Shown piece by piece: positions 5,854 through 31,169 of a stretch of 64,000 nucleotides of DNA (position 1 is its first letter; each line of letters begins with the position of its first letter). Both the position numbers and the translations under genes were made by a program. Under the pieces are notes generated by a model. The model did not search any database, was not told where the DNA came from, and worked only from the letters and a program-made list of their open reading frames with translations. The stretch is from Paenibacillus sp. VTT E-133291 (GTDB lineage: Bacteria; Bacillota; Bacilli; Paenibacillales; Paenibacillaceae), in assembly GCF_002264395.1 (NCBI RefSeq), contig NZ_NFVA01000032.1, positions 1 to 64,000 on the forward strand, read 5' to 3'.

Positions 5854-5875
5854 ATTCTAAAGGGGGCAAGAAGTA

Positions 5876-6679: not shown

Positions 6680-6692
6680 AGGGGAAGTAATC

Positions 6693-7565: not shown

Positions 7566-7577
7566 GAGGGTGAACTA

Positions 7578-8437: not shown

Positions 8438-8497
8438 ATATTTCCTTGCTAATGGATCTTGTATCTATTGAAGGTAGGGATAAGGAGGGAGGTTTTG

Positions 8498-10756
8498 ATG
8501 AGGAGTATCTTTAGCAGTTGCCTTGTTAGCGGTAAGAGTCGAAAGAAACAAAGGCAGGGTAAGGGCAAAACGGAAGGTTCAGTATCCATTTTTTTAATTA
8601 CGGTACTGGCTTTCGTCTTTCTGTTTACCGCTGTGCTGATTGACTATGCGCGGATTGCGGCCTTCAATGTTCAGGAGGAACGTTTAGCGAGGGCTAGCGT
8701 TCGCTCTGTAATGTCATCTTACGATGTTGAGCTACGAGAAAGGTATGGTTTATTCGCCTTTGGAGAGAGTGACGGGGATATGCTGCTGTCTCAGGTACTC
8801 AATGATAATATGCATAAAAGTGGTAGGAGTGACGTGTTCAATCTGGTACCCTTCGTGTTGGAAACGTCATCTTTGAAATGGAGCAGGCCGCTGGGTAGCT
8901 ATGATGTTGTGAGTCGACAAATACTGGAGGAAATGAAGTATAAGGCTCCTGTGGATTTTGCTTTGGAATTGGCAGGTAAATTCAAGCCGATGTCAGGAGT
9001 AATGGCAGAGGCCTCACGGGTTACTGAATTACTCAGTAAGCTACAGCCGTTATATGACGAGCGGGAAGAGGCTTTGGATCTTATGTTAGAACGGAGAAGC
9101 CAGGCTGCGGAGAGTGGGAGAAGGTTGCTTCAATCGATTATGGATCCGCTTGCAGAGTCCATTTCGGCCAGTTCACTCGGAAGTATACAATCGGCGGCGG
9201 ATATTCCCGCACAGTATAGTGACTATCTTGGGAAATATTACGATGATCTTTATCGTGATAGTAAAAAGCCTGCAAAGTACACTTATCAATTGTCTCTCTA
9301 TCGGAGTCGAACTACTGAGATGTTATCGCGGTTTCCTGGCTTATTAACAGCTTTTCGAGAAGATCATGAAAGATCAATGGAGGGAGCGAATGAAGCGATA
9401 AAGAAGGCAGAGCAATTGAATGACGAGATGAGAAATATATTGGAACAGTCGCGAATGGAGGGGGTGAATCTATCAAATGATCCTGCTAATGACTGGGATA
9501 TTCCGGGAAGCTCAGGAGAGATAAGCTCAGACCCGCTTAAAAAGCTGCGTGAGCAGGAAGATGCACTGATTCTCTCCTCAACGGATCTAAGTCAGATGGA
9601 GAATAGTATATCCACGCAGCAAAGTGCTTACGGTGCCATCGAACCGATTGTGACAGGAATGTCGGGTGTGCTGTATGAAGCTTTGAGTGAATATGGTGAC
9701 TCCTATCAAATGATCTCTTCTGTTCTAGAAGCTTCACGCGTAGTGAATAACTATCTGCAGAATTACGGTAAGAAGGGAAGTATTATCGTTAGTGATTTGG
9801 CTGTAATCGAACAGCACCGTAGCTCAGATAAAGAGCGAAAGCAGTTGGAGAGAGAAGCAAAATCTAAGCTGGGTGAAGCGAAAGCATTGCTTGATAAGAT
9901 TCGAATGATGGGTAACGGAGTGACAGATTCTCTGACAAGCTATCAAACACTTCGTCAATATTACGAGGAGAATATCGCTTTTAATAAGGAATTAGTATCC
10001 GATTCACTTGTTAAATCTGAAGTAAGCACTAACCCGTATACTGCTGGGAGTTCGGCAATGGAGGATATGGACGGAATCTATGCAGCGATGGGTGGCATTA
10101 TGGGAGGAGCTAGAGATAGACTTTTCCAAACAGAGTATTCTGCGTTCTATTTTCAACATTTTGACGTTTCCAAGCTAGCCACTCTAGCAAAAGGTTCTGA
10201 GGGTACAACCGAACTTACAGACCAGCTTAATCCTCAAGCGCAAGAGCTGGAATACATTCTTTATGGATTTCATAATCCTGCTGGAAATGTAGCCGCAGCG
10301 TATGCTGAAATATTTGCCATGAGGCTGTCTATTCGAACGATGGAAGGTTTTATTGAGAAGGCAAGTTTAGGAAACCCGTTGGCCGTTCTGGCCGCAGCAC
10401 TGTTGTATGGCATCCAGCAAGCTATTCAGGACATGTTGTTACTCTGTGAGAAAAATTCCATAACACTGTCTAAATACTTACCAGCCCAGCTGACTTATCG
10501 CGATCATTTGCGTCTGTTCATGATGCTGCATGGAGGCGGAAATGTTCAGTTATCTCGAATGCTGGCTCTAATCCGATTGAACACAGGAATAAATCCAGAT
10601 GAAAGAAGTACGTATGTCTCTTCGAATATTAAGCTTGGGATGCGGCTATGGTTTCTGCCGGGTGTTGTGAAGCTGTTGGATTATAGCGCTGGGTATTCTG
10701 GAGAAGTGCAAGGCAGTACATATATGAGAACAGTACAGGCTGATTTTTCATACTAG
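8498..10756 (+). CDS. Large Tad-associated membrane-anchored protein
   Basis: A 752-residue protein with one N-terminal helix (about residues 30-52) preceded by a basic segment. The sequence TEGSVSIFLIT looks like a TadE/TadG-type prepilin signal, but Phe replaces the +5 Glu, so cleavage is doubtful. The long extracytoplasmic part contains charged, heptad-like stretches (about residues 190-340 and 440-500) that suggest coiled coils. It resembles the DUF5702-type proteins of Firmicute tad loci and perhaps replaces TadG. The ATG at 8498 is preferred over a TTG 39 bases upstream because TAAGGAGGG lies just before it. It is the longest protein of locus 1 and the least understood. Confidence 0.8.
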   Translation: MRSIFSSCLVSGKSRKKQRQGKGKTEGSVSIFLITVLAFVFLFTAVLIDYARIAAFNVQEERLARASVRSVMSSYDVELRERYGLFAFGESDGDMLLSQVLNDNMHKSGRSDVFNLVPFVLETSSLKWSRPLGSYDVVSRQILEEMKYKAPVDFALELAGKFKPMSGVMAEASRVTELLSKLQPLYDEREEALDLMLERRSQAAESGRRLLQSIMDPLAESISASSLGSIQSAADIPAQYSDYLGKYYDDLYRDSKKPAKYTYQLSLYRSRTTEMLSRFPGLLTAFREDHERSMEGANEAIKKAEQLNDEMRNILEQSRMEGVNLSNDPANDWDIPGSSGEISSDPLKKLREQEDALILSSTDLSQMENSISTQQSAYGAIEPIVTGMSGVLYEALSEYGDSYQMISSVLEASRVVNNYLQNYGKKGSIIVSDLAVIEQHRSSDKERKQLEREAKSKLGEAKALLDKIRMMGNGVTDSLTSYQTLRQYYEENIAFNKELVSDSLVKSEVSTNPYTAGSSAMEDMDGIYAAMGGIMGGARDRLFQTEYSAFYFQHFDVSKLATLAKGSEGTTELTDQLNPQAQELEYILYGFHNPAGNVAAAYAEIFAMRLSIRTMEGFIEKASLGNPLAVLAAALLYGIQQAIQDMLLLCEKNSITLSKYLPAQLTYRDHLRLFMMLHGGGNVQLSRMLALIRLNTGINPDERSTYVSSNIKLGMRLWFLPGVVKLLDYSAGYSGEVQGSTYMRTVQADFSY

Positions 10757-10774
10757 CAGGAGGTTGGTAAGGAT

Positions 10775-11767
10775 ATGGGGGACAGGTACCGGATTAGGGG
10801 GAAGACGAAGGAAGAAGGCAGTATGGTAGTAGAAGCGGCGATGGTTCTCCCGATCTTCCTACTGTTTGTTTTGTTCCTAATTTCTATCGTACAGATGACC
10901 TTGTATTCGACAGCCTTACAAAGCACAGCATCCGATACTGTGAAATCTATTTCAACGCATATGTACCCGGCAGCTTTGGCGGTGCAGAAATGGGGAGCAA
11001 CAAGCGAAGCTGGTGCTGATCCAGTGAAGGGTGGTACGGATCTACCCGCTGGCAATCAAGCTGAATCGAATTGGACGATCCCTCGCTTGTCACTTACAGA
11101 TTGGGGCAGTAGTTATGCAATGTCATTACCTAAGCCGCTGAATGAGTGGGTCATGTCAGCTTTAGAGAAGGGCGAGGGACCTCTGCAGAAGCTACAGGCT
11201 GAGACCTCTGAAAGTGTACTGGATCTAGCGATTAAACCCCTATTAAAGCCTTATCTGTCATCAGACTTGTTGGATTATGATCGAATTCATGTATCTAACA
11301 TTATCGTGCCTGAGTTAAAGAAGGGTACCCGACCTTACTTTGGAATGGTTGTTAGCTATGAGCTGCCGATGAAGGTGCCCTTTCTAAACCAACGCATTGT
11401 ACTTGAGGCAAGTGCTGTTGAACGTCTTTGGATCGGGGATACAGGAGAGGGTACAAATAAGGGCAATGACGGCACTGGTCAACCAGAGGATTTTATTAAG
11501 ATTTTGGAGAAGCCGAATCCAGCTGTAGCCAATAAGCAAGGCAAAGTTCGTGCTAAAATTCCGCCGAATGCTTCCGCTAGCTTATCCGTTTTTTATAAAA
11601 GCGGGGGAAGTACTGCTAGATATTTAGGCTGGAAACAAGCGGATGCGGACGGATATATCGAGTGGGAGTGGAAAATAGGTGTGAATACCACACCGGGCTC
11701 GTGGCCATTTGTAATTCAGCTCGATGACGGTAGATCTATTGAGGTGATGTTCACAGTAGTGAAATGA
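10775..11767 (+). CDS. TadE/TadF-like pseudopilin (Tad locus 1)
   Basis: A 330-residue pseudopilin. Residues EEG-15 followed by SMVVE give a prepilin peptidase site with Glu at +5, and the helix VLPIFLLFVLFLISIVQ follows. The large C-terminal domain is probably outside the membrane; its last 90 residues look like a beta-rich domain (PNASASLSVFYKSGG). The start is ATG behind GCAGGAGG, 18 bases after the previous stop. It belongs to the same operon. Confidence 0.82.
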   Translation: MGDRYRIRGKTKEEGSMVVEAAMVLPIFLLFVLFLISIVQMTLYSTALQSTASDTVKSISTHMYPAALAVQKWGATSEAGADPVKGGTDLPAGNQAESNWTIPRLSLTDWGSSYAMSLPKPLNEWVMSALEKGEGPLQKLQAETSESVLDLAIKPLLKPYLSSDLLDYDRIHVSNIIVPELKKGTRPYFGMVVSYELPMKVPFLNQRIVLEASAVERLWIGDTGEGTNKGNDGTGQPEDFIKILEKPNPAVANKQGKVRAKIPPNASASLSVFYKSGGSTARYLGWKQADADGYIEWEWKIGVNTTPGSWPFVIQLDDGRSIEVMFTVVK

Positions 11768-11790
11768 ATGAAGGGGAAGGAGGGTAATCC

Positions 11791-12300
11791 ATGGCGGAGT
11801 GGGCCTTCTGGGGATGTCTGCCGTTTCTGGCAGCTGCATTTATTACGGATATAAAGTCGATGAGAATACCAAACTGGATCACTGTCTCAGGATTGCTTGC
11901 GGGTCTGCTGGCTCAAGCGCTGATGAACGGCTGGGATGGACTGCTGAAGGCTGGTGTGGGTGCCGCTGCAGGATTTACAATACTTCTAATCTTGCATTTG
12001 ATAGGGGCGGTTGGTGCGGGGGATGTTAAGCTTTTTGCCGGGATTGGAGCGTGGACAGGGATGCTATTTACATTGCAGGTCGTGATGTACTCCGTACTGT
12101 TTGGTGCTTTGATAGGCTGGCTAATTGTCTTAAAGAGACGGGAGACAGGCAGGCGTACGCGTAAGATCTTTAACATAATTTCCGGATTTATATTATTGAA
12201 GAGTTCATTCCTATTACGAAATAAAGATAATGAGCTGTTGAAGTTTCCCTTCATGCTGGCTGTAGTCCCTGGTACCATTTGCGCTTATCTTTATTTTTAA
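11791..12300 (+). CDS. tadV: A24 prepilin peptidase (TadV/CpaA type)
   Basis: A 169-residue multi-helix aspartic peptidase that cuts the Flp prepilin and the pseudopilins of this operon. The two catalytic Asp motifs are visible: FITDIKSMRIPNW near residue 20 and GAGDVKLFAG near residue 77. The N-methylase domain of PilD is absent, as usual for the short TadV form. The start is ATG behind GGAGGG. It is the only prepilin peptidase in the window, and the second Tad-like locus has none. Confidence 0.92.
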   Translation: MAEWAFWGCLPFLAAAFITDIKSMRIPNWITVSGLLAGLLAQALMNGWDGLLKAGVGAAAGFTILLILHLIGAVGAGDVKLFAGIGAWTGMLFTLQVVMYSVLFGALIGWLIVLKRRETGRRTRKIFNIISGFILLKSSFLLRNKDNELLKFPFMLAVVPGTICAYLYF

Positions 12301-17839: not shown

Positions 17840-18580
17840 TTGGCTTTACAGCGTAGGCAACTGTTGAAACGCAATTATTTCTTCGCAAGTCTCATTTTGA
17901 TTACTGGAGTCGGCGGATTATTAGGCTATGATCTCTACTTCAAGCCCTACGTACTATCCCGAACTGTGGTCAAAATCAAAGTGGAAGGCGGGGAGCTTCT
18001 TCCCAAAAACTATGAGCTGAAAGCAAGTGATTTATATCTGGATTCTGTTCAGACCAAGGATATACCTTCGGGTGTAATTACAGAAATCGCACAAGTGGAG
18101 CACAAAATTACGAATGTAAATCTGACCAATGGAAGTATTTTGACGGCATCCTTAGTGGATGTTAGTGATTTAGAACCCCTAAAGGATGAAGGGATTTTTC
18201 CTATACCGAAGGAGGCTATCTTTGCCATCAATGGTTCACTGCGCAGCCGGGATAAGGTGGATATTTATCTTGTTGATGGAGACCGAGAAAGGCGGAGTGA
18301 ATCGCTTAGCCCAGACAAGAAGGAAGAGGAAGAACTGATCGTGCAGAGCCCAATTAGTGAACCTGCAAAGGAGGTGTTTATATCGGGAGTCACCGTTAAT
18401 TATGTGCGAACAGAAGACAATAATGATGTGCTGGATTCAGAAAAGGGAAACAACAATAATCGTTTTACTTCGACTGGCAAGGTGGCGACACCAGAATTGA
18501 AGCTGAAGAAAAGTGATGGCGAGCGGCTTGGACAATTTTTGGAGCAGGGAAAGAAGCTGTGGATCGTACGGGTCGAGTAG
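17840..18580 (+). CDS. SAF-domain protein, CpaB/RcpC-like (locus 2)
   Basis: A 246-residue protein with a basic N terminus, one membrane helix (about residues 13-30) and an extracytoplasmic SAF-like region. That region has the pattern TVVKIKVEGG, a SAF-type NGSILTASLVD segment and the block RSRDKVDIYLVDG. This is the layout of CpaB/RcpC, a periplasmic or extracytoplasmic Tad component. An Asp/Glu/Asn-rich insertion lies near residues 155-215. The start is TTG at 17840, chosen because GAGGAGGCGG lies at the right distance; frames open further upstream but pass through the terminator hairpin. It is the first gene of locus 2. Confidence 0.78.
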   Translation: MALQRRQLLKRNYFFASLILITGVGGLLGYDLYFKPYVLSRTVVKIKVEGGELLPKNYELKASDLYLDSVQTKDIPSGVITEIAQVEHKITNVNLTNGSILTASLVDVSDLEPLKDEGIFPIPKEAIFAINGSLRSRDKVDIYLVDGDRERRSESLSPDKKEEEELIVQSPISEPAKEVFISGVTVNYVRTEDNNDVLDSEKGNNNNRFTSTGKVATPELKLKKSDGERLGQFLEQGKKLWIVRVE

Positions 18581-18592
18581 GAGGGAAGAGTC

Positions 18593-19657
18593 TTGAAAAT
18601 ATTTAGTCTAGGCCTAGAACAGTTAACCATTAATGATATCAAAAATGCAGGATTTATTGTAATTACACAAAGTGTACTTCCTGATCCATCTCATACAGAG
18701 GGCCATATGCTAATGGTTACCAGTGATCAGATTCAAGCTCAGTCACTTAGCGAACTGCGCCGGAATTATCCGGGCTCAACGATCTTATATGTATATTTGC
18801 AAAAGGGAATCAGTGGTTACCAAGCTGTACATATGCTGTGTGAAAGCTTAGGGATCTATTTTATACCTCCTCGTTCTACCTCGTCAGCGGTGATAGAGAA
18901 GATTCGCTTTATTCTAGACGAGAATGGCGAGGAACGAGGTAATTTGGTTGGTTTTTTTGGATCTGGTCCGGGGATCGGCTGCACTAGTGTAGCCAAACTG
19001 TTCGCAAGACGAATTGCCGCGGCGGGCCTTCGTGTTATTGTCCTTGGACTTGATTTATATGATCCCGGATATGACCGCAAAGCTACCATTAGTCTGGATA
19101 GGCTTCGATCAAGGCTCACAGGGAAGATGATTCATGATGAGGATTTTGAGCAATTGATTAAGCAAGACGGTTACTCGTATCTCCCAGGCAATTACGATTA
19201 CTTAAGCGCACAAGATTATCAGGAGGATGAGATTGAATATTTTTTGTCTAGAGCTGGGGCAAATGCAGATGTGGTTATTGCTGACTTCGGCTCTATCCCG
19301 GAAAGTGCTGCATGGTATGTCGGAATGCACAAATCGGCACTGCGTATGATCGTCACTCATCCAAAGCATGAATACAGACTCGAACCTCTGCTAGAGCTTG
19401 CTGGGCATATGGATCTACATCCACATGATTTTCAACTAATTATTAATCGCAGTAATGTGGAAGAAATATCTTCTCCTAAAAATCTAGCGCTTCGCTTTGG
19501 GACTGAAATTTTGCTGGAGCTGCCGTATTACCAGCCCTTGCAGGAGAGCTTACCCCTAGGCAAAAAAGAGCTGCAGCATGTGGATGATAAGGTACATTCT
19601 CTGCTCGTGTCCATGAGCCTGGCGCCAGAAGCTAAAAAGAAAGGTATATTCCTATGA
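18593..19657 (+). CDS. TadZ/CpaE-like protein with degenerate Walker A (locus 2)
   Basis: A 354-residue protein with an N-terminal receiver-like half and a MinD/ParA-type C-terminal half from about residue 113. The nucleotide loop reads GSGPGIGCTS: the essential Lys is Cys. A Walker B-like DVVIADFGS is kept. TadZ proteins often have atypical Walker A motifs, and this one probably does not hydrolyse ATP. The start is TTG at 18593 behind AGGAGGGA. Its stop overlaps the ATG of the ATPase gene by four bases. Confidence 0.82.
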   Translation: MKIFSLGLEQLTINDIKNAGFIVITQSVLPDPSHTEGHMLMVTSDQIQAQSLSELRRNYPGSTILYVYLQKGISGYQAVHMLCESLGIYFIPPRSTSSAVIEKIRFILDENGEERGNLVGFFGSGPGIGCTSVAKLFARRIAAAGLRVIVLGLDLYDPGYDRKATISLDRLRSRLTGKMIHDEDFEQLIKQDGYSYLPGNYDYLSAQDYQEDEIEYFLSRAGANADVVIADFGSIPESAAWYVGMHKSALRMIVTHPKHEYRLEPLLELAGHMDLHPHDFQLIINRSNVEEISSPKNLALRFGTEILLELPYYQPLQESLPLGKKELQHVDDKVHSLLVSMSLAPEAKKKGIFL

Positions 19658-21099
19658 ATGGAAATCAACCGAACCGTCCATTGTTCTCTCTAAAAGAAAG
19701 TATCCTACGTATGAGCAAACCGGGCAAGGAAGACTTTTATGTATTTTTGCAAAAAATGAAAAACGATATGAACGAAGGGCTGGAACGTGAGGATGATGTT
19801 TACTTCGAGTTAAATGCGAAGGCGCTAATTGGGGATCCGCAGGCGGTTAGCTTTTTTATGAATGAGATAGAGAAATACTTGCGGAAGATACCCTTTACGG
19901 GCATGGTTCCAGAAGCATACAGAACAGCTGCAGAAGCGCTCTATCATGAGTGGAAGGGCTTTGGTCCAGCGTATCGTTGGTTTACGGATCGTGCATACAG
20001 TGAATCAACCGGGCTACAGATGATCGGAAAGCAGATCTTTTATAACCATAAAGGTGAGTTTGTAGTTTATCCATATGAGATGCCTTCACTAGATCGGGTC
20101 GAACAGTTAAAGCGCTCCTTATTAAAAAGTGATCCCAACAAAAAGCTGAACAAGGACAACCCTTCAGTGGAGTTTAAAATGGATGACCCGCTCTGGCCTG
20201 GCCGATTTATTAGGCTTGCCATTTGGGTATCCCCGAGAGTATGGGATGGCTTCACCACAATATCGTTACGGCGGCAGGTTGTAGAGTTTCTGAGTCTAGA
20301 CGATCAGGCGGGTACGGAATGTATTCCTGCGGAAGCGGTTGAAATGATTCGGGTGTTATCATCTACCTTTCGCAATAGCATTATTGCGGGCGCTGTAGGC
20401 TCGGGAAAAACAACCTTTGCAAATACGATCGTCGGTGAGCAACTGCTCGGATCTTCATCCTGTATGGGTGTAGTGATGATAGAAAAGCATCCGGAGTCGA
20501 TTTTACCTTATCAAATTAAAGGGCACCGAATCATTCCAATCCAGGCTGCGAACGAGGAATTGATGGAGGTAGGGGTAGAGTCTCTGCGGCATGATCCGAA
20601 CATTTTGTATATGACCGAGATGCGGTATAACGAATGGGAATTTTATCTGTGGAGTGGGGAAAAAGGGTATGACGGCATCACCGGAACGTTCCACACCGTT
20701 GATTCGGAGGATATTCCTTATCAAGGCGCTTTTGCCGTGTCGACAAGGATTGGCGGGAGCCTTAAGGGGCATTTGATCTCTGCACTGAAATCATGCGAGC
20801 TGGTCTTTATTCTGGAAAGTGTTCCGAACGGAAAGAAGCGGTTAACTCGAATATCGGAAGTCTTTTATGACGAGGAAAAGAACTCTGTATTTGCGAATGA
20901 TCTGATGCGCTGGGAACCCCAGAAGATGCGTTGGTCCTATAATGACAAGCTGACGAAGAACCTGATTCTGAAGATGACTAGGAAAAATGAGCAGGCAACA
21001 CAGTTGCTTCAGAAAGAGCTGGGACAGCTTGCAGCAGCAAAACCAATGGATCAGCCTATCAAAGAAAGCTTGAAATCTAAGATCATTCTTAACGAGTGA
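19654..21099 (+). CDS. TadA/VirB11-like secretion ATPase (locus 2)
   Basis: A 481-residue hexameric-type secretion ATPase. Walker A is GAVGSGKTT (about residues 249-257) and the Walker B-like segment is ILYMTEMR near residue 315. The His box region reads YDGITGTFHTVD. The N-terminal 200 residues differ strongly from TadA of locus 1, and the nucleotide-binding half is divergent too, so this is not a recent duplicate. It should energise the locus 2 machine. The 4-base ATGA overlap couples it to the TadZ-like gene. Confidence 0.88.
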   Translation: MNGNQPNRPLFSLKESILRMSKPGKEDFYVFLQKMKNDMNEGLEREDDVYFELNAKALIGDPQAVSFFMNEIEKYLRKIPFTGMVPEAYRTAAEALYHEWKGFGPAYRWFTDRAYSESTGLQMIGKQIFYNHKGEFVVYPYEMPSLDRVEQLKRSLLKSDPNKKLNKDNPSVEFKMDDPLWPGRFIRLAIWVSPRVWDGFTTISLRRQVVEFLSLDDQAGTECIPAEAVEMIRVLSSTFRNSIIAGAVGSGKTTFANTIVGEQLLGSSSCMGVVMIEKHPESILPYQIKGHRIIPIQAANEELMEVGVESLRHDPNILYMTEMRYNEWEFYLWSGEKGYDGITGTFHTVDSEDIPYQGAFAVSTRIGGSLKGHLISALKSCELVFILESVPNGKKRLTRISEVFYDEEKNSVFANDLMRWEPQKMRWSYNDKLTKNLILKMTRKNEQATQLLQKELGQLAAAKPMDQPIKESLKSKIILNE

Positions 21100-21111
21100 G
21101 GAGGTGAAACC

Positions 21112-22161
21112 GTGGATTTATTATTGTATATTTTTCGTTTTGTCCTTCATTTGTTAATTGTATGGGGAATTTGGCTGCTCATTAAACCGCTAATCGAACG
21201 GCATTTACGACAGGTAGGTCAGAAGTTCGATTATCGGATCAAACATAAAATGAGTATTTTTGGAAAAAGGGTTAGCTCGGTGAAAAAAAGGTTGTGGCTC
21301 TACCGTCATCTAGATAATCTTTTATATTTTGTACACCGAAAATATGAGCCGGGCATTAGCGTTATGCGATTTTTCATGCGTACAGCAATAGTGTTTATCG
21401 CGGTTTTTCTATCAGGACTACTGACGCTAAGCGAGCTTCCTGGGCAATTGAGTTTTAACAATCCTTTTCTGGAGGGGATAACTTTTAACGAAGGGCGTTC
21501 GATTCAGGGGGCTTGGAGATTTCCACTTTTTATGGCTGTGATTTCTGCGACGATTCCTTATTTTCGTATGAGATACATCTACGCGCAGAGGAAGGTGCAT
21601 GGAAGCTATGATTTACTCGATGTAGTCAAAATTTCCACCAAATTCACTCACTTGTCGGTAGATTCCATTCTCGATCGGACAACGGATTTTCTTACGGATA
21701 AGAATGTGCTGAAGGGTCCTTTGAAGCTGCTAGGGGCTGCATTTTCCAATTACAGTAGTGAGAAGGAGCTTGTTGAGGAAGCCGGGAGATTTTCGAATGC
21801 GATTGGCACTACCTTCGCCCTAGAATTTATATCGGATCTGCTCTATGCCGAGAAGGAGGGGACCCGTTATTTAAAAAGCTCATTGATGCTGTTAAATCGT
21901 TCCATGGAACAACAGAGGGAAACGATTTTGACTGTGAAAGCGGGGAGTAGAGATGCGATTAGCCTTGGCTTATACGGAAATCTTTTGGTGCTGATATCAA
22001 CGGTTGGAACCTTTATGTACATGCTGAAGCCTGATATCTATTTCCAATTGCAGTTTGAGACTACAGTAGGACTTTCTTTTTTGATGGTGATCATCTCCGG
22101 TCTTTTTATTTCTTTTGTGATTAGCACTATTCTTGCCAGACCTAAACTGGACTACCACTAA
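21112..22161 (+). CDS. TadB-like membrane platform protein (locus 2)
   Basis: A 349-residue membrane protein: an N-terminal helix (5-25), two helices near residues 80-102 and 135-152, a soluble domain of about 140 residues, and two C-terminal helices. Position after the ATPase and the topology match TadB/type II secretion F proteins, but the sequence lacks the usual T2SSF motifs by eye, so it is a distant or specialised relative. The start is GTG at 21112 behind a perfect AGGAGGTGA. Confidence 0.7.
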   Translation: MDLLLYIFRFVLHLLIVWGIWLLIKPLIERHLRQVGQKFDYRIKHKMSIFGKRVSSVKKRLWLYRHLDNLLYFVHRKYEPGISVMRFFMRTAIVFIAVFLSGLLTLSELPGQLSFNNPFLEGITFNEGRSIQGAWRFPLFMAVISATIPYFRMRYIYAQRKVHGSYDLLDVVKISTKFTHLSVDSILDRTTDFLTDKNVLKGPLKLLGAAFSNYSSEKELVEEAGRFSNAIGTTFALEFISDLLYAEKEGTRYLKSSLMLLNRSMEQQRETILTVKAGSRDAISLGLYGNLLVLISTVGTFMYMLKPDIYFQLQFETTVGLSFLMVIISGLFISFVISTILARPKLDYH

Positions 22162-22172
22162 GGTGATGAGCT

Positions 22173-23042
22173 ATGGACAGATTGTTACTATTAATTACTG
22201 TAATCGGGATTGTATATGTCGCTTTACTTGTCTTTATAAGCAGCAGCAGTAAACAGGAAAAATATCTTGTCCGATTAGGACTGCGGTGGAATAAGTTTGG
22301 GGAACGGATGCAGGGAGATAGACTCCAGCAATTATTGAACGATTCAGGTTTATCTATTGCGGCCCGTAAAATTACGCTTTTCCGTTACTCGGCAGCGCTG
22401 ATTTATTTAATAACTCAAGTCATCAGTGATTTTATTCGTTCAAATTCTTTTTCTATCTATGACCCTCTAATTGCTCTACTTATTCTCATAATTAGCAGTC
22501 CGATGCGCTATCTTCCGTTTGGCTGGGTGCTTGCATGGCTTCATCAAAAAACGGTTATTAAAAAAGACGGTGAGCTGATCTCTTTCATCCGTCTATATGA
22601 GAATAATCGGCTGCGCAAGCGCGGATATGCGCAATTTGGCACTTTTTGCGGGAGTACGGCTGGACATTTTCAATATATACGTCAGGACTTGTACGAGTTG
22701 TCTGAACGAGCAGTAGATGAGGGTGTGGAGGGGGCGATTGAATGGTTCTGTGCCAAGTTTCCGGATAATCATAGTTTTATTAATGACATCCGGTCCATTT
22801 TGCTGGCTACTGAGGGTATGGAGGACGACACAGAAGCGGCGAATTATTTGCGTGAGCAAGGTAAGATTATATCCAAAATCTCCAGTGATCAGTATTTGAA
22901 AAAGTGGTCTTTTATCGGTGATTTATCTACGATCATTAATGTGATCCCATCGATTGCTACTTTTTTGATGATTGTCGCGATGGCGATGCAGTACATTTTG
23001 CTGATCAAAGGGAATTTTAATGGTGTCGGCATGTTCCAGTGA
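22173..23042 (+). CDS. TadC-like membrane platform protein (locus 2)
   Basis: A 289-residue membrane protein with an N-terminal helix, two central helices near residues 67-110 and a C-terminal helix. A cytoplasmic domain lies between. It occupies the tadC position, 11 bases after the TadB-like gene, and has the same topology, but only weak sequence resemblance. The start is ATG at 22173 behind AAGGTGATG. The following 56 bases are extremely AT-rich and may hold an internal promoter or processing site. Confidence 0.68.
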   Translation: MDRLLLLITVIGIVYVALLVFISSSSKQEKYLVRLGLRWNKFGERMQGDRLQQLLNDSGLSIAARKITLFRYSAALIYLITQVISDFIRSNSFSIYDPLIALLILIISSPMRYLPFGWVLAWLHQKTVIKKDGELISFIRLYENNRLRKRGYAQFGTFCGSTAGHFQYIRQDLYELSERAVDEGVEGAIEWFCAKFPDNHSFINDIRSILLATEGMEDDTEAANYLREQGKIISKISSDQYLKKWSFIGDLSTIINVIPSIATFLMIVAMAMQYILLIKGNFNGVGMFQ

Positions 23043-23098
23043 AAAATTGTATATTCAATATTATTTTAAAAATATAAAATAAAAGGGAGATTTTAACA

Positions 23099-23290
23099 AT
23101 GAAAAAGGATGCTATTTCTACAGGTTTGTTTATTGCTATTGGATTTTTATGTGTGGCCATCGTAATTGCTGTTTTGATTCCTGTAGTTCGGGAGGTCATT
23201 GATGCTACGGATGATAATAAACCGACGATTCCGGGTGTGACTTTTATTCAACCACTGGATTCCAGCCAAACTTCAACTGCTCGGGTTTAA
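23099..23290 (+). CDS. Tiny one-helix pilin-like protein A (locus 2)
   Basis: A 63-residue protein that starts MKKDAIS and enters a hydrophobic helix at residue 8 (about 8-31), then a polar tail. It sits where the Flp pilin sits in locus 1, but has no Gly cleavage site and no +5 Glu, so it is not a normal prepilin. It resembles the next gene product (MKKD-x-IS, then FxAIGF). A good AAAGGGA ribosome site precedes it. It may be a structural subunit used without cleavage. Confidence 0.72.
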   Translation: MKKDAISTGLFIAIGFLCVAIVIAVLIPVVREVIDATDDNKPTIPGVTFIQPLDSSQTSTARV

Positions 23291-23297
23291 TTCGATT

Positions 23298-23441
23298 ATG
23301 AAAAAAGACTCTATCTCCATAGCAATGTTTCTGGCTATTGGCTTTGTGATCGCAGGGATGTTTATCACAGTAGCTACGCATATCATTGGCAGCAGTCAAG
23401 ACGATATCATCACACATACTAAGCAAGTAGAGCAATATTAG
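23298..23441 (+). CDS. Tiny one-helix pilin-like protein B (locus 2)
   Basis: A 47-codon gene, easily missed because of its size. The product starts MKKDSISIAMFLAIGF, continues as a hydrophobic helix to about residue 31 and ends in a polar tail (QVEQY). It is a clear paralogue of the 63-residue protein just upstream, sharing MKKD-x-IS and FxAIGF. It begins seven bases after the previous stop without a strong ribosome site of its own, so it is probably coupled. The next gene follows after 15 bases behind GAAGGAGGCG. Confidence 0.72.
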   Translation: MKKDSISIAMFLAIGFVIAGMFITVATHIIGSSQDDIITHTKQVEQY

Positions 23442-23456
23442 AAGGAGGCGTTTCTA

Positions 23457-23837
23457 TTGAAGGAGACCGTCCTCCGGGCATTATTCATGTGGCTTGTCCT
23501 GTTTATTATCCTGCAGCCCATATTTACCTATATTGATTATTTGCTAGATTTACAGGTCAAAGCTAATACGTCCTACATCACACAAAAAGCTGCAACAGAG
23601 GGGATGGTCACAGCGTCTATGCGGAACGAAGTGATTTCAAATCTCAAGGCGATTGGGTTCTCAGAGGGTTCTATAGAAATTACGAGCAGTACGGATACCA
23701 TTCAAGAACGCAAGCAACGAATTGATGTGTATGTAACAGCACCGCGGATAAATTTGTTTCCGTATAACTTTTCCACAGTTTCGCAGCCGACCCGATATTA
23801 TGGCCATGGGTCAATTATGAGTGAATATCTCGATTGA
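23457..23837 (+). CDS. TadE-like anchored protein (locus 2)
   Basis: A 126-residue protein with one N-terminal helix (about residues 5-25) and a small extracytoplasmic domain with the sequence GFSEGSIEITSS near residue 68. The layout (short N terminus, helix, small beta-rich domain) matches TadE-like pseudopilins. No prepilin cleavage motif is present. The start is TTG at 23457 behind AAGGAGGCG. Product name is by position and shape only. Confidence 0.68.
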   Translation: MKETVLRALFMWLVLFIILQPIFTYIDYLLDLQVKANTSYITQKAATEGMVTASMRNEVISNLKAIGFSEGSIEITSSTDTIQERKQRIDVYVTAPRINLFPYNFSTVSQPTRYYGHGSIMSEYLD

Positions 23838-23857
23838 TTAAGGGATGAGCCTAATTT

Positions 23858-24355
23858 ATGGATTACATTATTAAGCTGGCATTTGTCCTGCTGATCTTTA
23901 TCTACTCCTGGTTCTTTCAGATCCAGAATCAGGAGTGGGACATGCTGCGCAGCATGCTAAAAGATGCAAACAATATCGCTGTTCACGATGCTGCGCAGGA
24001 ATTAGATGAAACTGAACTCACACGAGGTCGTCTAATTATCGATCCCGCGCTTGCTTACGATACTTTTCAACATGCCTTGCAGGCGAATCTTGGGCTTGAT
24101 AACGGCCTTTCTCCTCAAGTAGGCAGTCGTTTTAAGAATCAAGTAAAGATCGTGAAGTTTGATATTATTGATGATTCCGATGGAGTGACTTTTCCGCTTT
24201 TATACGAGGATAGTGAATATGGCATTACCAAATACATAGAGGGTCCCTCGGTTATTGCCGTTATCGAGACGGAACATCCGTTGCTGATCTCCAGAGCCAA
24301 AACACAAGAGCCTATCAGAGTACCTGCAGTTCAGGAGTATAAGTTCAATAAGTAG
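23858..24355 (+). CDS. Second TadE-like anchored protein (locus 2)
   Basis: A 165-residue protein with the helix IIKLAFVLLIFIYSWFF at the extreme N terminus and a soluble extracytoplasmic domain. As with its neighbour there is no Gly/Glu prepilin signal. It could be another anchored pseudopilin-like subunit. The start is ATG at 23858, 20 bases after the previous stop, with GGGATGAG as ribosome site. Function is inferred only from context. Confidence 0.66.
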   Translation: MDYIIKLAFVLLIFIYSWFFQIQNQEWDMLRSMLKDANNIAVHDAAQELDETELTRGRLIIDPALAYDTFQHALQANLGLDNGLSPQVGSRFKNQVKIVKFDIIDDSDGVTFPLLYEDSEYGITKYIEGPSVIAVIETEHPLLISRAKTQEPIRVPAVQEYKFNK

Positions 24356-24390: not shown

Positions 24391-25128
24391 ATGAAGAAGA
24401 GAGTTGTAAAGGCGACTTTGGCAGCGGCAATGTTATTTAGCGTGGTTTTAGGGCAGGGAGTGGCTGTAAAAGCGGAAACGATTACACCAGTAGTTACGGC
24501 TAAGCCAATCACATCCGAGGTACCCGCAGCAACGGTGAAACCTGCAGTTACGCCAGCGCCTATCATGAGGGATAATCTGTTTAAATTTGGTCTGAAGAAA
24601 GACTTGGAGTTGCCTGTGACAGTTACGGCGGGTGGGTTGAGTTATACTCTGGAGAAGCTGATGTTTTACGACGTAAAGTCTAAAGAAGCACAATCTCTAA
24701 TGAAGCTGTATGGTTATTCAGATCGAATTTATAAAACACCTACTAAATATATGGTATGGACTAAACTCACCATTGAAAATAAGGGTAGTAAAATCATTCA
24801 ATTAAGTGCTAAAGATCCGAGTTCGAAATGGTATTTTAAAATGGATGGTAATAATCTTCTTGAACCTGCACCTAAAAATAAAATGTTAGAGTTGAACAAT
24901 AAAGAAGCATTGTGGAATTGGGTATTGAAACCAGGTGAAAAGCTATCTAGCTATCAGATGTATGGGTACATTAAAGACCCTTCAGTTATTTCTATATACG
25001 TTAATCTTGGAGGCGATTTTGAAGAAAAATACATTGTTAAACGCCAGGGGAGTAATTTATATGAAGAAAATTTGGATTGTTCTGCTTACAGTTATACTAG
25101 TTTTTGTATATATCCCACAGAACATTAA
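24391..25128 (+). CDS. Exported protein of locus 2, unknown function
   Basis: A 245-residue secreted protein. The signal peptide MKKRVVK...VAVKA ends near residue 28 and is followed by a Thr/Pro/Val-rich linker (30-60) and an Ig-like domain. The segment WTKLTIENKGSKIIQLSAKD recalls extracellular DUF4352-type domains, but that is only a resemblance. AGGGAGA places the start at ATG 24391 rather than a TTG upstream. Its last 68 bases overlap the start of the next gene in another frame; the last 22 residues (from YEENLDCSAY) are encoded within that overlap and may be a run-on tail. Confidence 0.75.
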   Translation: MKKRVVKATLAAAMLFSVVLGQGVAVKAETITPVVTAKPITSEVPAATVKPAVTPAPIMRDNLFKFGLKKDLELPVTVTAGGLSYTLEKLMFYDVKSKEAQSLMKLYGYSDRIYKTPTKYMVWTKLTIENKGSKIIQLSAKDPSSKWYFKMDGNNLLEPAPKNKMLELNNKEALWNWVLKPGEKLSSYQMYGYIKDPSVISIYVNLGGDFEEKYIVKRQGSNLYEENLDCSAYSYTSFCIYPTEH

Positions 25129-27325
25129 AGCAGCTAATTCGCAAAGCAAAACAGTGTCAATACCTTCAGAAATTCTTAATGGGTCTGCAAATGCTCAAAA
25201 ATCTTACTACTTAGATCTTCCAAGTGGAGTATCCAATTCGGCAATTAATGTCTCTTCTCTTAAATATAATGGCACTAATCAAAAAGTTGCTCTTACAATG
25301 GAGAATGGAAAAATAAAGGTTACTTTAAAGGGCGTTGAAGCAAAACAACGAATAGATAATTTACTCGGGTATAATGCCTCATTTGAAACCCTTTTTTTAA
25401 CAACTCCTGGTAATTCTATTTGGCGATATTCAGACGGAGTAAGATGGCAGATAAATGAATGGGATCCATACATTAATGCTCAGAAACATAACGATAAAAA
25501 TGGACAAGGTAATGGTACACCTAGAAATGATCCCCCGGATATGACGGTGGTAACTCAATCAGCAGTATCACGTTCGGGAATTAAATGGTATGACAAAAAC
25601 GTGAATTCGGTAATTGATTCATCTCAGATCATAGAGTCAACCGTCCAATTAGTTGTACCTACAGATACACTTCCATCAACATATGTTAATCATAATGTCT
25701 TAAATGGGAAGCAATTTATTATTTATTATAAAACTGACGCAGCTACGCAAAATTTTGATCCTGAACAATTAAGTTCGAACTTTGACAAAAGTGGTCATGC
25801 GTTGGGTAGGCGTTATAAAACAAAATTAAACTACTACTTTACAGGTTCGGCTAATGTAACTACTTACAAATACAGTGGAAACGTCTCTTTTGACTACACT
25901 CTCCCTACAGAACCAACACTTACCGGTACGGTAACTCTAAATAAACCTAATCCCAATCCAACAAAATTGGGAGATAAAGACGAACCCGTTCAAATCTCAT
26001 TAATAGGGCTGCTGCAAGGATACAATGATGCTTCAAACATTGACGAGTGGGTGTTCTATGCTAAAGAGAAAGATAAGAACAACACACTCAAAACGAAAAA
26101 GGAATCTGCAAAGACATTTAACGTAAGCGCTTTATTTGACTTTGAGATCAAAAAGTCGAGTGTAACGGGCGAATATTTTACTCAGGAATATGCTTTAACC
26201 GTTCTCGTCCGCTTTAAAAAGCCAATCGTCACAAAGAGTGGAACCATCACCTCTCTGGAACAGCCCCTACAGATTTCAGCAGGTGTTTATAAAAACAAAC
26301 CTCTGGTTACTTTTCCTCCACCTCCGACCAAGCCAACAGAACCGGAAGGAAAGCCGCCTATTGCAAGAATATCAACAGCTAGATACATAAAAGCAGGGGA
26401 TGATATGCTCGTTAGCGGAAATGCTTCCTATGATCCGGATGGATATATCACTGATTATGCTTGGAGCACATCTGGAGCGCAGGGAGAAATAGGAAATGTC
26501 CCAAGGGGGTATGTATGGTATACCAGAGAGCAAGTTGGAGAGACATTTCCTATAGCGCTCACAGTCGTTGACAATGATGGACAAATAGGTAGTACAAGTA
26601 CAGAAGTTACCGTCATTGAGCCGAAACCAGCAGCAATTATAGGTATAGAAGGAATACTTAAACAAAATCGTAAAACGACATTGTTTAATAGAAGCCAGAG
26701 TCCAACACGCTTTCCGTTAATACCATCGAAAACACGAGTTACCATCACTGCGGTTTCTGTTGGGACGAATGAAGATATTAAGTACAGTGGCACATTGTCT
26801 GATTTCGAAAGCAAAGACGTCTTATTTAAGAAACCTGGAAAATATAAGGCTACGATCTATGTGGAAAACACGCTTGGATATTCTTCAAGTAATGAGATCA
26901 CTTTTGATATTGTGCCAGATGAAGCGCCGTACAACTATTTTACTCTGCCTGGAGTGCTATATCGAAGTCCTGATTACGGTAATAAAGCGGTGGTTTCATT
27001 GGATGATATCTCCTATTCGCCTGATAAAGATGTAGTGGGTCGGAGACTCTGGGAGTATCGCTATGATTCAAATAATGACGGGAGTTTCAGCGGAGAAGCA
27101 TGGGTGATCTTCAGTAATGAGAACAAAGACCGCTTAAATTTAGAGCTGAGCGAGGTAGGGAAATATGAAATCCGACTTACTGTGTTTGAAGAGTTTGGTC
27201 AACCCACCATTGATGAGTTTGTGACAGAAGCTGATCGGAAATCTACAAATTCAGATGGACAAAAGTTAAGCTCACGGATTGTAGAAGTGAAAAATCGAGC
27301 GCCAGAAGTTGATTGGTCCTGGTAG
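25061..27325 (+). CDS. Large exported PKD-domain protein (locus 2)
   Basis: A 754-residue secreted protein. The signal peptide MKKIWIVLL...NIKA ends near residue 27. The first 400 residues show no known domain. A PKD domain follows (about 430-525; DGYITDYAWSTSG and VVDNDGQIGS), then two further Ig-like regions. It ends NRAPEVDWSW, which looks like the opening of one more repeat that is then cut off. A long open frame upstream of 25061 is ignored, because the MKK start has a signal peptide directly behind it and CAGGGGAG before it. It may be displayed or exported by the locus 2 machine, or simply use Sec. Confidence 0.8.
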   Translation: MKKIWIVLLTVILVFVYIPQNIKAANSQSKTVSIPSEILNGSANAQKSYYLDLPSGVSNSAINVSSLKYNGTNQKVALTMENGKIKVTLKGVEAKQRIDNLLGYNASFETLFLTTPGNSIWRYSDGVRWQINEWDPYINAQKHNDKNGQGNGTPRNDPPDMTVVTQSAVSRSGIKWYDKNVNSVIDSSQIIESTVQLVVPTDTLPSTYVNHNVLNGKQFIIYYKTDAATQNFDPEQLSSNFDKSGHALGRRYKTKLNYYFTGSANVTTYKYSGNVSFDYTLPTEPTLTGTVTLNKPNPNPTKLGDKDEPVQISLIGLLQGYNDASNIDEWVFYAKEKDKNNTLKTKKESAKTFNVSALFDFEIKKSSVTGEYFTQEYALTVLVRFKKPIVTKSGTITSLEQPLQISAGVYKNKPLVTFPPPPTKPTEPEGKPPIARISTARYIKAGDDMLVSGNASYDPDGYITDYAWSTSGAQGEIGNVPRGYVWYTREQVGETFPIALTVVDNDGQIGSTSTEVTVIEPKPAAIIGIEGILKQNRKTTLFNRSQSPTRFPLIPSKTRVTITAVSVGTNEDIKYSGTLSDFESKDVLFKKPGKYKATIYVENTLGYSSSNEITFDIVPDEAPYNYFTLPGVLYRSPDYGNKAVVSLDDISYSPDKDVVGRRLWEYRYDSNNDGSFSGEAWVIFSNENKDRLNLELSEVGKYEIRLTVFEEFGQPTIDEFVTEADRKSTNSDGQKLSSRIVEVKNRAPEVDWSW

Positions 27326-27338
27326 GAGAGGTGCTTAA

Positions 27339-30300
27339 ATGAAAAAAACAAAAGAAATACTTTCACTAGTAATTATAATCACTATCTTATTCGGAGTTTT
27401 TCCTAGTCAGGGAGTGTATCTTCAGACAGCAGAGGCTGCGACGGGTGATCCTAATTTCATTACTTATAAAGATATAAATATACCTGCTGATGGTGATTTT
27501 TATGACGCTGGTTGGAATTATGGTACTATGCGTGGGACAATAAATAACCAAAAACTAACGAATATTAAATATAATCGTACCACTAAGCAAATTACATTTG
27601 ATATTAGTTCAGATGCAACATTGACTGTAGGAGTAAACTTGTATAAATCACAAAGTGCTCTAGATAGACGTGTTGTTCGAGCGGATCTCTGTGTAGCGGC
27701 AATACCAGAGGGGGCACCATTAGATTTACCAGTCTACCAATATAATTGTCCGAGCCACTGGTCAAATCCAAATACCAATTGGACCCCATTGTATAGGAGT
27801 TTTTTTGCTGGACCGTTTGACCCGAATACATTCGATCATACATTTAATCTTGCGACAGATGTTCCTTATGGAAATGTTATAGGGAATTTAAGTTATGGTG
27901 AACTTCCAATAGGTTTAGTTATTAATTACAGTTTTGGTGCAGGTCAACAGGATGGATTTCGTGGATATGGTCCAGAACATGGATATGGAGGGCCGTACAT
28001 TGGTTGGAGTTTTCAAAGAGTATTTCCTTTGATACCTAATAGTCCACCTACCATTTCGTTAAATACACCCAATAATCAAGTCCTGCAGAACGAGCCTGGA
28101 CGAAACACACTTAACATCGAGGGATATGTCCATGATCCAGATAATGATGATCTTATCGTAAGTGCGGAGATACCAAATATATTTTATAGGAAGACGGTAG
28201 TCTCTCAAACGAAAGGGTATCAGTATTTCTCTATCCCTGTAGACGCTGTGGCTGATTCGATCCCGCCGGGCGATTATACGATGACTGTAAAAGTAGCAGA
28301 TCCTTCAAATATGTCAGAATCCGCGAGTATGACCTTTAAAGTTACAAACAGACTGAAGCGAAACGCTTTTGTTCTCGTTACTAGTCCTATAGAGAATAGC
28401 GGCACCACCTATGAAGATTATGAGTGGGATGCTAAGTACGCTGATCGAGTGAGATATGATCATGATCCGAATTACTTTGATAACTCAATGGGGATTATAG
28501 GGGATTCGGGACTATGGAGGACGAGCCTTTACACTTCATTTCCGTATACCGGACAATATGTAGTGAGTTATCAAGCTAAGGATATACCGAAACAGGATGC
28601 TCGCTTTGCTGAATATCAGATGTGGAGTAAAGATGCCGCATCTACGATGAGTTTTAAAGTTCACCGTAAGCCAATAGCGCTTTTTTCAGCAAGGCTTATC
28701 AATGGAAATGTTCAATTAACAGATTCATCCTACGATTTAGATCATATTACAAGTGCTGATAAAGGGATTGTGCAGTGGCAATGGCAATATAAAAAGAGTC
28801 TTGATGAGATGTGGATCGACGGGCAGCCACCTGGGGGAGTTTTTGAAAAGGACAGCTACGACATACGTTTAAGAGTCCGTGATGTGGATGGAGATAATGG
28901 AATCGGTGTATGGAGTGATTGGTGTCAACGTACTGTGGGGAATGCGTCTGTTAATCTACCACCCGTTGCATTATTTACCGTTAATCCGAATATCGTTTCT
29001 TACCGTAAATTTACGAGTATTATAGACAAGTCTTTCGATCCAGATAATGATCCATTGGATGTATATTACTGGACTGTAATCAAAGACGGATGGAATAAAG
29101 TATGGGAACATTGGGGTGGAGCTACAACACCGCCGAACATCGCATCATTCGGTGAAGGGAATTATCAACTCAATCTACAAGTACATGATAATCGTGGCTT
29201 GTGGTCGGATGGGTACAGTCAAAATGTACAGGTAGTCAATCATCCACCGGCTGCAGCATTTACAATGCCTAACGAAATTTACCGCGATACGATTATCACA
29301 ATGGATAACTTAACACCAGATCCGGATGAAGATGGAGATGTTTTATCTTATGCCTGGAATGCAAAGTTTAATGACTCTCCATACTACTGGGCAGGAAACA
29401 ACCGTTATCAATCTATGACCATTCGTGATCTTATTAACCGTAACGGTATATCACATAAAAAAGCTATTTCTGAGAGTTGGGAAATGCAGCTCACAGCCTC
29501 TGATGGAAGGTTAAGCTCTTATGCGACACGTACATTTATGGTTAAGAATCATGTTCCTGTTGCTAAGATTAACGGACCGTCATCCGTAAATCAGTATGAT
29601 ACAAAACAATTTACGTCAGGCGATATTGATGAGGATACATCAGATCAAGGCTCGTTAGAATACTACTGGAAAGTAACGAACAGTACGGGTGAAATGAAAT
29701 CATATCTTACTCGCGATATAACACTTACTTTCTCAGATCCAGGGGTATATACGTTAGAACATTGGGCAATCGATCAAATAGGAGATAAGTCGAATATCGC
29801 TGGATTGCAAGTCCAAGTGAAAGAGAATTTGGCGCCTACTATGACTTTAACTAGCCCTTCAGGTACAGCAACAAACCCATCTGTGATTGATGCGGATCAA
29901 GGCGATCCATTAATTAAATGGACTTACGCAGATCCGGAAAATGATTCACAAGAGAAATACAGGTTAGAGTTCTTTACGAAGGATGGTCTATTAGTCTCCA
30001 CGATAGAAAATCCGGATCCTACAGGATTGCTCAGACAATATCAAATCCCAAATAATACATTTGAACGGTTTGAATACTTTACAGTGCAAGGTCGGGCATA
30101 CTCCAAATTTTCATGGTCAGATGTATCAAATGAAAAAACATTCATCATCGATAACGCACCTAAGCCGGGATTCACTCTGATCACAGATACTGGTAAAGAT
30201 GCGGCTAAGGTACCGATCTACAGGACGGACGTTCTGAACATTAAGAGTACCGCCTCTGATCCGGACGAACCAAAAGGAGATATAATCAGCCACAAGTATT

Positions 30301-31169
30301 TCTTAAAACCATCAAGTGGAACAGAAGCCCTAGCGAGCACTCAAAAGGACTTCACGAAGCAGTTTAGTAGTAATGGTGTCTTTACCTTTAGACAAATCGT
30401 TACAGATTCATTGGGTCTGCAACGTGAGCTTTCGCAGAACATTACAGTAGTCAACCGGATACCGACGACTACAATAACGTACCCAACCAGTGTTGATCCA
30501 TCTAACCCGACAATCGCAAGCACACTTACCCCGATCATTAAATGGGATTATCAAGATGAAGACGGAGATCTTCAGCAACGTTATAAGGTGCGAATTATTA
30601 ACTTGGCCACAGGTGTAATCAAGGTACAATCTGGTGAGCAAGTATCAAGCGCTAAGCAATGGCAGATTCCAGTTGGTTCACTGATCGAAAACGAGAAGTA
30701 TGCAGTCGAGGTTGAAGTTTTTGACGGGTTCAGCTGGGGCAATGTTTCTGCACGTAAATATTTCATGGTTAATCTATTAAGTATAAAAGGTGGAGTGAAG
30801 CACACTGAAGAGTGGAACAACAACCGTAAGGGTTATAATCTGAAAAAGAGCGGCAATAAGGAGAGTCCAAGAGGATACAATGTATTTTGGGCAGGTGAAC
30901 GTTTTGTTCTGCAAGGTACAGCAACAGGTCTCCCAGATACTGTGCAAGTGACTATGAACGGAGGGTTTACTACGCAGCTCAGCCCAACTAACGACGATAA
31001 AACCTTCTGGACAGGTGAAATGTACGATAGCTCTTTTGAAAAGCTACCCGATGGCCCTGTTACTTTTACCTTTACGGCTCAGAATGCGTACAACACCAAA
31101 ACGGATACCGTTACAGTTGTTATATCATCAGATTGGGCGGAGTATTTCCAAAGTCATCGAATAAAGTAG
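27339..31169 (+). CDS. Giant exported PKD/Ig-repeat protein (locus 2)
   Basis: A 1276-residue secreted protein with signal peptide (about residues 1-34, cut near AEA). An N-terminal unrecognised domain (35-230) is followed by an array of Ig-like/PKD-type units. Their linkers repeat the pattern V-N-x-x-P-x-A near residues 540, 633, 738, 829, 940 and 1038, with Asp-rich DPDNDP-type loops that probably bind calcium. No LPXTG, SLH or C-terminal helix is present, so it is released or held by other means. It follows the 754-residue PKD gene after 13 bases. Likely an adhesin or scaffold; base composition is more AT-rich by eye than locus 1. Confidence 0.83.
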   Translation: MKKTKEILSLVIIITILFGVFPSQGVYLQTAEAATGDPNFITYKDINIPADGDFYDAGWNYGTMRGTINNQKLTNIKYNRTTKQITFDISSDATLTVGVNLYKSQSALDRRVVRADLCVAAIPEGAPLDLPVYQYNCPSHWSNPNTNWTPLYRSFFAGPFDPNTFDHTFNLATDVPYGNVIGNLSYGELPIGLVINYSFGAGQQDGFRGYGPEHGYGGPYIGWSFQRVFPLIPNSPPTISLNTPNNQVLQNEPGRNTLNIEGYVHDPDNDDLIVSAEIPNIFYRKTVVSQTKGYQYFSIPVDAVADSIPPGDYTMTVKVADPSNMSESASMTFKVTNRLKRNAFVLVTSPIENSGTTYEDYEWDAKYADRVRYDHDPNYFDNSMGIIGDSGLWRTSLYTSFPYTGQYVVSYQAKDIPKQDARFAEYQMWSKDAASTMSFKVHRKPIALFSARLINGNVQLTDSSYDLDHITSADKGIVQWQWQYKKSLDEMWIDGQPPGGVFEKDSYDIRLRVRDVDGDNGIGVWSDWCQRTVGNASVNLPPVALFTVNPNIVSYRKFTSIIDKSFDPDNDPLDVYYWTVIKDGWNKVWEHWGGATTPPNIASFGEGNYQLNLQVHDNRGLWSDGYSQNVQVVNHPPAAAFTMPNEIYRDTIITMDNLTPDPDEDGDVLSYAWNAKFNDSPYYWAGNNRYQSMTIRDLINRNGISHKKAISESWEMQLTASDGRLSSYATRTFMVKNHVPVAKINGPSSVNQYDTKQFTSGDIDEDTSDQGSLEYYWKVTNSTGEMKSYLTRDITLTFSDPGVYTLEHWAIDQIGDKSNIAGLQVQVKENLAPTMTLTSPSGTATNPSVIDADQGDPLIKWTYADPENDSQEKYRLEFFTKDGLLVSTIENPDPTGLLRQYQIPNNTFERFEYFTVQGRAYSKFSWSDVSNEKTFIIDNAPKPGFTLITDTGKDAAKVPIYRTDVLNIKSTASDPDEPKGDIISHKYFLKPSSGTEALASTQKDFTKQFSSNGVFTFRQIVTDSLGLQRELSQNITVVNRIPTTTITYPTSVDPSNPTIASTLTPIIKWDYQDEDGDLQQRYKVRIINLATGVIKVQSGEQVSSAKQWQIPVGSLIENEKYAVEVEVFDGFSWGNVSARKYFMVNLLSIKGGVKHTEEWNNNRKGYNLKKSGNKESPRGYNVFWAGERFVLQGTATGLPDTVQVTMNGGFTTQLSPTNDDKTFWTGEMYDSSFEKLPDGPVTFTFTAQNAYNTKTDTVTVVISSDWAEYFQSHRIK

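Follow-up and report, generated by a model that had tools for sequence, protein, structure and literature searches.

In machines of the type IV filament class, leader removal takes place on the cytoplasmic side of the membrane and precedes extraction of the subunits by the platform. The Tad or Flp (type IVc) family is marked by pilin-like subunits with a class III signal peptide (Gly or Ala, with Glu at +5), minor pilins of the TadE/TadF kind, a CpaF/TadA-type secretion ATPase, TadB and TadC platform proteins, a dedicated A24 prepilin peptidase and the extracellular filament that is assembled. The section of PMC10128026 concerned with prepilin peptidase describes its cleavage step as essential in bacteria and archaea. 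Here we report on a 64,000-nucleotide stretch of Paenibacillus sp. VTT E-133291 (contig NZ_NFVA01000032.1, hereafter the window), in which a canonical Tad set, locus 1 (about 3456-12300), lies side by side with a divergent Tad-like locus, locus 2. Locus 2 spans 17840-24355 on the + strand and continues without large gaps to probably secreted proteins at 31169. It encodes the secretion ATPase and, judged by homology only, the minor pilins; it has neither subunits with a class III signal nor an A24 gene of its own. We lean towards the view that locus 2 represents a branch of the Tad systems in which leaderless, mature-like subunits are used without an A24 peptidase in a short pilus- or piston-like assembly.

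With Tad/Flp systems locus 2 shares the order of CpaB-, TadZ-, TadA-, TadB- and TadC-like genes, the small subunits and two minor-pilin homologues, but it lacks the class III signal and an in-locus A24 gene, and its tiny subunits have no detectable similarity to an Flp-like protein. The initial annotation went too far in knowing of no described system of this form: Imam et al. reported in 2011 Gram-positive tad-like loci (Clostridium kluyveri and others) with no protein carrying an apparent prepilin motif (PMC3244431). As that paper outlines them, these loci encode tadV, unlike locus 2, and its sections on them mention no small leaderless subunits; we liken the two from the description only, which does not imply that they belong to one clade. 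The mitochondrial type II secretion system (miT2SS) is likewise a machine of the type IV filament class that does without the prepilin peptidase GspO, but its GspG retains the polar anchor and E5 and, in the accounts given in parts of PMC8134430 and PMC10128026, is apparently cleaved by something else. Loci for the MSHA pilus also have no prepilin peptidase of their own, although there, according to the relevant part of Denise et al. (2019, PMC6668835), another system is believed to provide the enzyme. Of the papers on Paenibacillus pili, PMC5072692 and PMC3012674 mention incomplete pili gene sets and PMC9765702 another pilus, and none of them, in the passages on pili, is tied to locus 2. A narrow exact-phrase search of a literature collection for wordings such as 'leaderless pilin' and 'without prepilin peptidase' found none.

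Locus 2 includes four small genes, all on the + strand. Two encode tiny leaderless proteins with one predicted transmembrane helix each, s63 (23099..23290, 63 residues, MKKDAISTGLFIAIGF) and s47 (23298..23441, 47 residues, MKKDSISIAMFLAIGF), both found in 14/14 same-genus loci. The others encode leaderless proteins with an N-terminal helix and a domain: s126 (23457..23837), a homologue of DUF4320-like minor pilins, and s165 (23858..24355), a homologue of leader-bearing minor pilins. When tested for a class III prepilin site (G/A-x4-E/D at the chosen start), none of the four was positive, whereas all three locus-1 controls were: the Flp at 7578 (EEG/LGTLE), the TadE at 7763 (DRG/SFTIE) and the 330-residue pseudopilin at 10775 (EEG/SMVVE). 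This is the contrast that the initial annotation had drawn. Misread start codons were ruled out in the window as an explanation. Each small gene there has a single in-frame ATG, GTG or TTG after the preceding stop, so a longer, leader-bearing form is not readable from such starts. In the 15 genomes of the genus, additional in-frame starts lie upstream of s63 in seven (in one of the seven just a TTG, two codons ahead), of s47 in one, of s165 in one and of s126 in none; s63 of locus L032 has no ATG, GTG or TTG start, with an Ile codon at that position.

The site is likewise missing at the chosen starts outside the window's genus. Among named loci (the best 80 of 159 ATPase relatives), 79 encode 144 tiny subunits and none of these has the site at its chosen start, although the starts were picked near the helix together with a ribosome-binding-like string, so that the test favours short N termini. 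For comparison, 12 of 14 flp-like open reading frames in a region scan of Tad loci were positive; the exceptions were both from L213, with a G leader and no E at +5, and no such frame was found in L076. An automated leader test on stop-to-stop frames proved noisy, since a ribosome-binding site, once translated, can pass for a leader; its counts were discarded, and only strings read by eye were kept for L109, L110, L113, L116 and L210-L221. The initial annotation had also described the subunits as starting directly in a helix. This suits the relatives, in which the helix begins almost at once (MRNILMTV, MKEVIIKI), better than the window, where, as elsewhere in its genus, the two tiny proteins have a short polar start (MKKDAIS or MKKDSIS) first.

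No A24 gene was found within locus 2 with the Pfam Peptidase_A24 model, as had been proposed from the sequence. The window's genome holds exactly two matches, one on contig C226 and one in locus 1, where TadV (11791..12300, +) matches PF01478 with E 9e-20 over 11818-12117. By itself the absence from the locus is weak evidence, because peptidases are shared among systems and, with two of them encoded in this genome, the subunits could be processed in trans. The survey covered 109 s165-positive genomes: 85 of the family with a strong s165 match, besides the window's own, and 24 of 40 further genomes of the class, a few of which (G431, G324, G449, G489) hold leader-bearing or mixed versions. Two of the 109, G088 and G017, have no A24 detectable by Pfam or by a local A24 profile. 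G088 is closed (one contig, 5.75 Mb, 100% complete) and G017 consists of 110 contigs (99%). With the threshold relaxed to E 10, G088 yielded a noise match alone (E 6.6) and G017 nothing; the local profile, made from four A24 proteins, recovered the enzyme from all four controls, which were genomes belonging to the same genera. Neither G088 nor G017 has a T2SSE match over the cut-off other than the locus-2 ATPase. In G088 the reading frames of the locus are open all the way from SAF to s165, and the genes from ParA to s165 are readable in G017.

The two larger small subunits link locus 2 to pilins. In hhalign comparisons the s126 profile (A1) aligned with a leader-bearing protein of locus L213 at E 5.2e-11 (97.1%) and the s165 profile (A2) with a leader-bearing protein of the same locus at E 5e-16 (98.6%). 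The partners themselves gave weak matches under the cut-offs, to DUF4320 (E 0.0059) for that of s126 and to N_methyl (E 0.0023) for that of s165, and Pfam returned nothing credible for 46 s126 and 48 s165 rows. Other Bacillota homologues, whether Flp-, s126- or s165-like, retain leaders (NERG/STLIE, DQRG/SAFIE, NKKG/FVSIE), and Pfam confirmed an A24 gene inside the cluster in 7/7 leader-bearing loci submitted. In the remaining leader-bearing loci an in-cluster A24 was not confirmed within the fetched stretch. Among the loci of the stop-to-stop leader test, the local profile placed A24 near s165 in four, fewer than Pfam confirmed. Two loci, L109 and L110, seem intermediate, with leaderless tiny subunits next to s126 and s165 proteins that have a G-type leader without E at +5. 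In a tree of 54 ATPases, nine canonical, leader-bearing or other rows split from the rest with weak support (93/48), the bootstrap being unsettled and long branches meeting; two changes of the label 'leaderless' are needed on it. The simplest story would have the major subunit lose its leader first and the minor ones follow, on at least two occasions. Taken together, locus 2 is best read, from its sequence, as a Tad branch that lost its leaders and its own peptidase.

All four small genes are under purifying selection, with median pN/pS of 0.24 (s63), 0.09 (s47), 0.09 (s126) and 0.18 (s165) over 14 same-genus genomes; the locus-2 ATPase has a median of 0.10, and three proteins encoded downstream are less constrained (0.34-0.49). 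All 14 other genomes of the genus in the sample carry the ATPase, at 86-95% identity, together with the complete gene order. When iterative profiles were run on 43 Paenibacillaceae loci (the window and 42 fetched), ATPase, TadB, TadC, s126 and s165 co-occurred in 42, the lone exception being the canonical Tad locus L076. Of the 148 genomes of the family, 91 have a match to the s165 profile, which is strong in 86 (the window's genome included); at E 0.001 the profile matches 54/398 genomes in the class, and at E 1e-5 42/398 in the phylum, the weaker matches including some leader-bearing relatives. The 80 named loci come from Paenibacillus, Cohnella, Thermobacillus, two records labelled Bacillus and one Paenibacillaceae bacterium, and 79 of them have both s126 and s165. 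Where Tad loci have flp, one to five copies of the tiny genes are present. In the named loci they number two in 65 loci and one in 14, and their products have 47-68 residues, with 75 of the 144 beginning MRNI. Tandem expansion was seen in L048 (five genes), L110 (three) and L115 (four).

The upstream part of locus 2, also on the + strand, follows the Tad order. A membrane-anchored CpaB/RcpC-like protein with a SAF domain comes first (17840..18580; TIGR03177 pilus_cpaB E 0.0017 and SAF E 0.031, both under the curated cut-offs), its probable start being the TTG at 17840 behind AGGAGG. At the CpaE/TadZ position stands a ParA/MinD-like ATPase (18593..19657), which had no significant match in the Pfam search and was named from its gene position, a deviant Walker A (GSGPGIGCTS) read by eye and a homologue at the same place in relatives. 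The following divergent TadA/CpaF secretion ATPase (19654..21099, Walker A GAVGSGKTT) falls under the T2SSE cut-off (E 2.3e-5, 23.7 bits against 24.9) and also under that of TIGR03819 (E 3.5e-12); a family profile of four sequences has CpaF chains 8rjf/8rkd as its best match (E 9.6e-33). TadB-like (21112..22161) and TadC-like (22173..23042) platform proteins were assigned from gene order and from profile matches in 43/43 loci (canonical L076 at E 1e-4 only) and 42/43 loci, respectively; neither has a T2SSF match in Pfam, where TadB gave none of note and TadC none, and their size and position fit Tad platform proteins. Ahead of the tiny-subunit genes lies an AT-rich gap of 56 bases (23043..23098, +), which is longer in some relatives and might carry a promoter or a processing site that allows the subunits to be made in large amounts. 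A Bindosome BasE match (E 0.023) was set aside as weak.

Three genes, again on the + strand, follow s165 and are present in 14/14 same-genus loci. They encode a 245-residue protein with a probable Sec signal, read by eye (24391..25128, 31-84% identity), a probably secreted PKD-domain protein of 754 residues (25061..27325, PKD_4 E 5.8e-9) and a probably secreted protein of 1276 residues with PKD and Ig-like domains (27339..31169, PKD_4 E 7e-11, Ig_Rha78A_N E 4.8e-7). Proteins with PKD, SLH or copper-amine-oxidase-N domains are encoded close to the locus in the window's genus and in some other lineages, and may be partners of the locus-2 machine. Among the Paenibacillus and Cohnella loci listed, an aminopeptidase-like gene, often with gatC/gatA, lies downstream instead (named by eye), which makes the link to a cargo uncertain; G088 is an exception, with a 975-residue Ig-domain protein.

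Other Tad-like loci were seen around locus 2 and elsewhere in the genome. The canonical locus adjoins the leaderless one in 15/15 same-genus genomes, as judged from A24 and ATPase positions, and the two types are also adjacent in L201 and L202, which come from two genomes of a different family in the class. Two further Tad-like loci of the window's genome, L051 (G000:C130) and L052 (G000:C230), have small proteins of 120-183 residues that likewise begin directly in a helix, and the Pfam A24 scan of the genome gave no match on either contig. They are possible counterparts of the Paenibacillus Tad loci beside T7SSg/T7SSh, Tad-like genes described in a part of PMC11217815, and differ from locus 2 in an apparent TadB-TadC fusion and in their subunits. 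The T7SSg/T7SSh linkage is only a candidate one; upstream of L051 lies a small helical gene, WXG100-like by eye, that recalls the arrangement in that paper. Additionally, L054 (G000:C209) encodes a small Flp-like protein (EEKG/EVGIKQIA) with two odd downstream proteins, and L053 (G000:C44), whose surroundings resemble a plasmid or an ICE, combines TadA-B-C genes with a small protein that looks s126/DUF4320-like by eye.

How might such a machine work? If locus 2 is a Tad branch with leaderless subunits, these would be made already mature-like, beginning at or near the position at which a mature pilin begins. The CpaF-type ATPase and the TadB/TadC platform would move one-helix proteins of 47-63 residues, predicted to lie N-in and C-out, within the membrane and stack these; s126 and s165 would be the putative initiating or tip subunits. 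The product may be a short assembly, resembling a pilus or a piston, in the wall of the Gram-positive cell, and the PKD proteins encoded next would be probable partners or cargo. The homology of s126 and s165 to minor pilins that bear leaders makes a modified pilus-type assembly a simpler reading than the filament or pore of a different kind that the initial annotation had proposed.

Several observations weigh against this proposal. The idea that every carrier of the locus lacks A24 is wrong: the enzyme is over the cut-off in 107 of the 109 s165-positive genomes (25/25, 35/36 and 47/48 by batch), and in 15/15 same-genus genomes the distance between an A24 gene and the locus-2 ATPase is about 7.5-7.9 kb. 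In both A24-free genomes the locus could be decaying, though its genes are open. Upstream in-frame starts exist for 59 of the 144 tiny proteins, and at the furthest start two (L172, L182) pass a loose test for the site, with strings that lie upstream of the likely start. The tiny subunits had no detectable similarity to the one Flp-like protein compared, and s126 profile A7 did not match the locus-1 TadE. Finally, L198, a contig of Cohnella sp. AR92, keeps TadB and TadC, but its first tiny gene is cut short and neither s126 nor s165 occurs within the 4.4 kb of contig behind TadC, so that it looks degenerate or rearranged.

The abundance of A24 raises the question of whether the locus-2 subunits are still cut in trans by the TadV of locus 1 or the A24 enzyme encoded on C226, the site being an unusual one (KKDA/IS or KKDS/IS, for example). 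The two A24 genes of this genome, the one so regularly found near the ATPase and the use of A24 enzymes by several systems (noted in part of PMC6668835) all fit this, and DAIS is compatible with the looser archaeal-type motif. The DSIS of the second tiny protein, however, misfits that same motif, a leader would not fit into the two or three residues that precede the helix in the relatives (MRN-ILMTV), and G088 and G017 carry the locus with no detectable A24. We regard trans-processing as unlikely.

It is also conceivable, if doubtful, that locus 2 encodes a Tad-derived membrane complex that makes no filament, in which the tiny proteins would serve as fixed stators or a gasket and the ATPase would drive secretion or anchoring of PKD/SLH proteins. 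Subunits that lack E5 and a freed mature N terminus would not be expected to pack as ordinary pilins do, as is established for type IV filaments (PMC10128026), and PKD, SLH or copper-amine-oxidase-N proteins do occur near the locus in several lineages. On the other hand, s126 and s165 are minor-pilin homologues, the tiny genes sit where flp would, in one to five copies, and secreted genes are not regularly downstream in the Paenibacillus and Cohnella loci listed (by eye), G088 excepted. A short positive start followed by a hydrophobic stretch, with Ala close to the helix end in some relatives, also resembles a Sec signal peptide, and the tiny proteins might then be precursors of secreted peptides and not structural subunits. 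The residues behind the helix vary among them, with no conserved cleavage site seen by eye, and this explanation appears highly improbable.

Returning to the Tad branch with leaderless subunits, its broader form gets an even chance from us: a bacterial machine of the type IV filament class that assembles subunits translated directly in a mature-like form, whose leaders were lost from the major subunit first and from the minor ones later, whose peptidase was dropped from the locus and which in some species exists in a genome free of A24. If true, prepilin cleavage would not be a universal requirement of the type IV filament superfamily. A conserved, widespread branch that is leaderless and in places has no detectable peptidase would render that requirement directly testable and would show how the N terminus of a subunit drives its extraction from the membrane. 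It would also bring to light a surface machine of Paenibacillaceae that is invisible to motif-based pilin finders.

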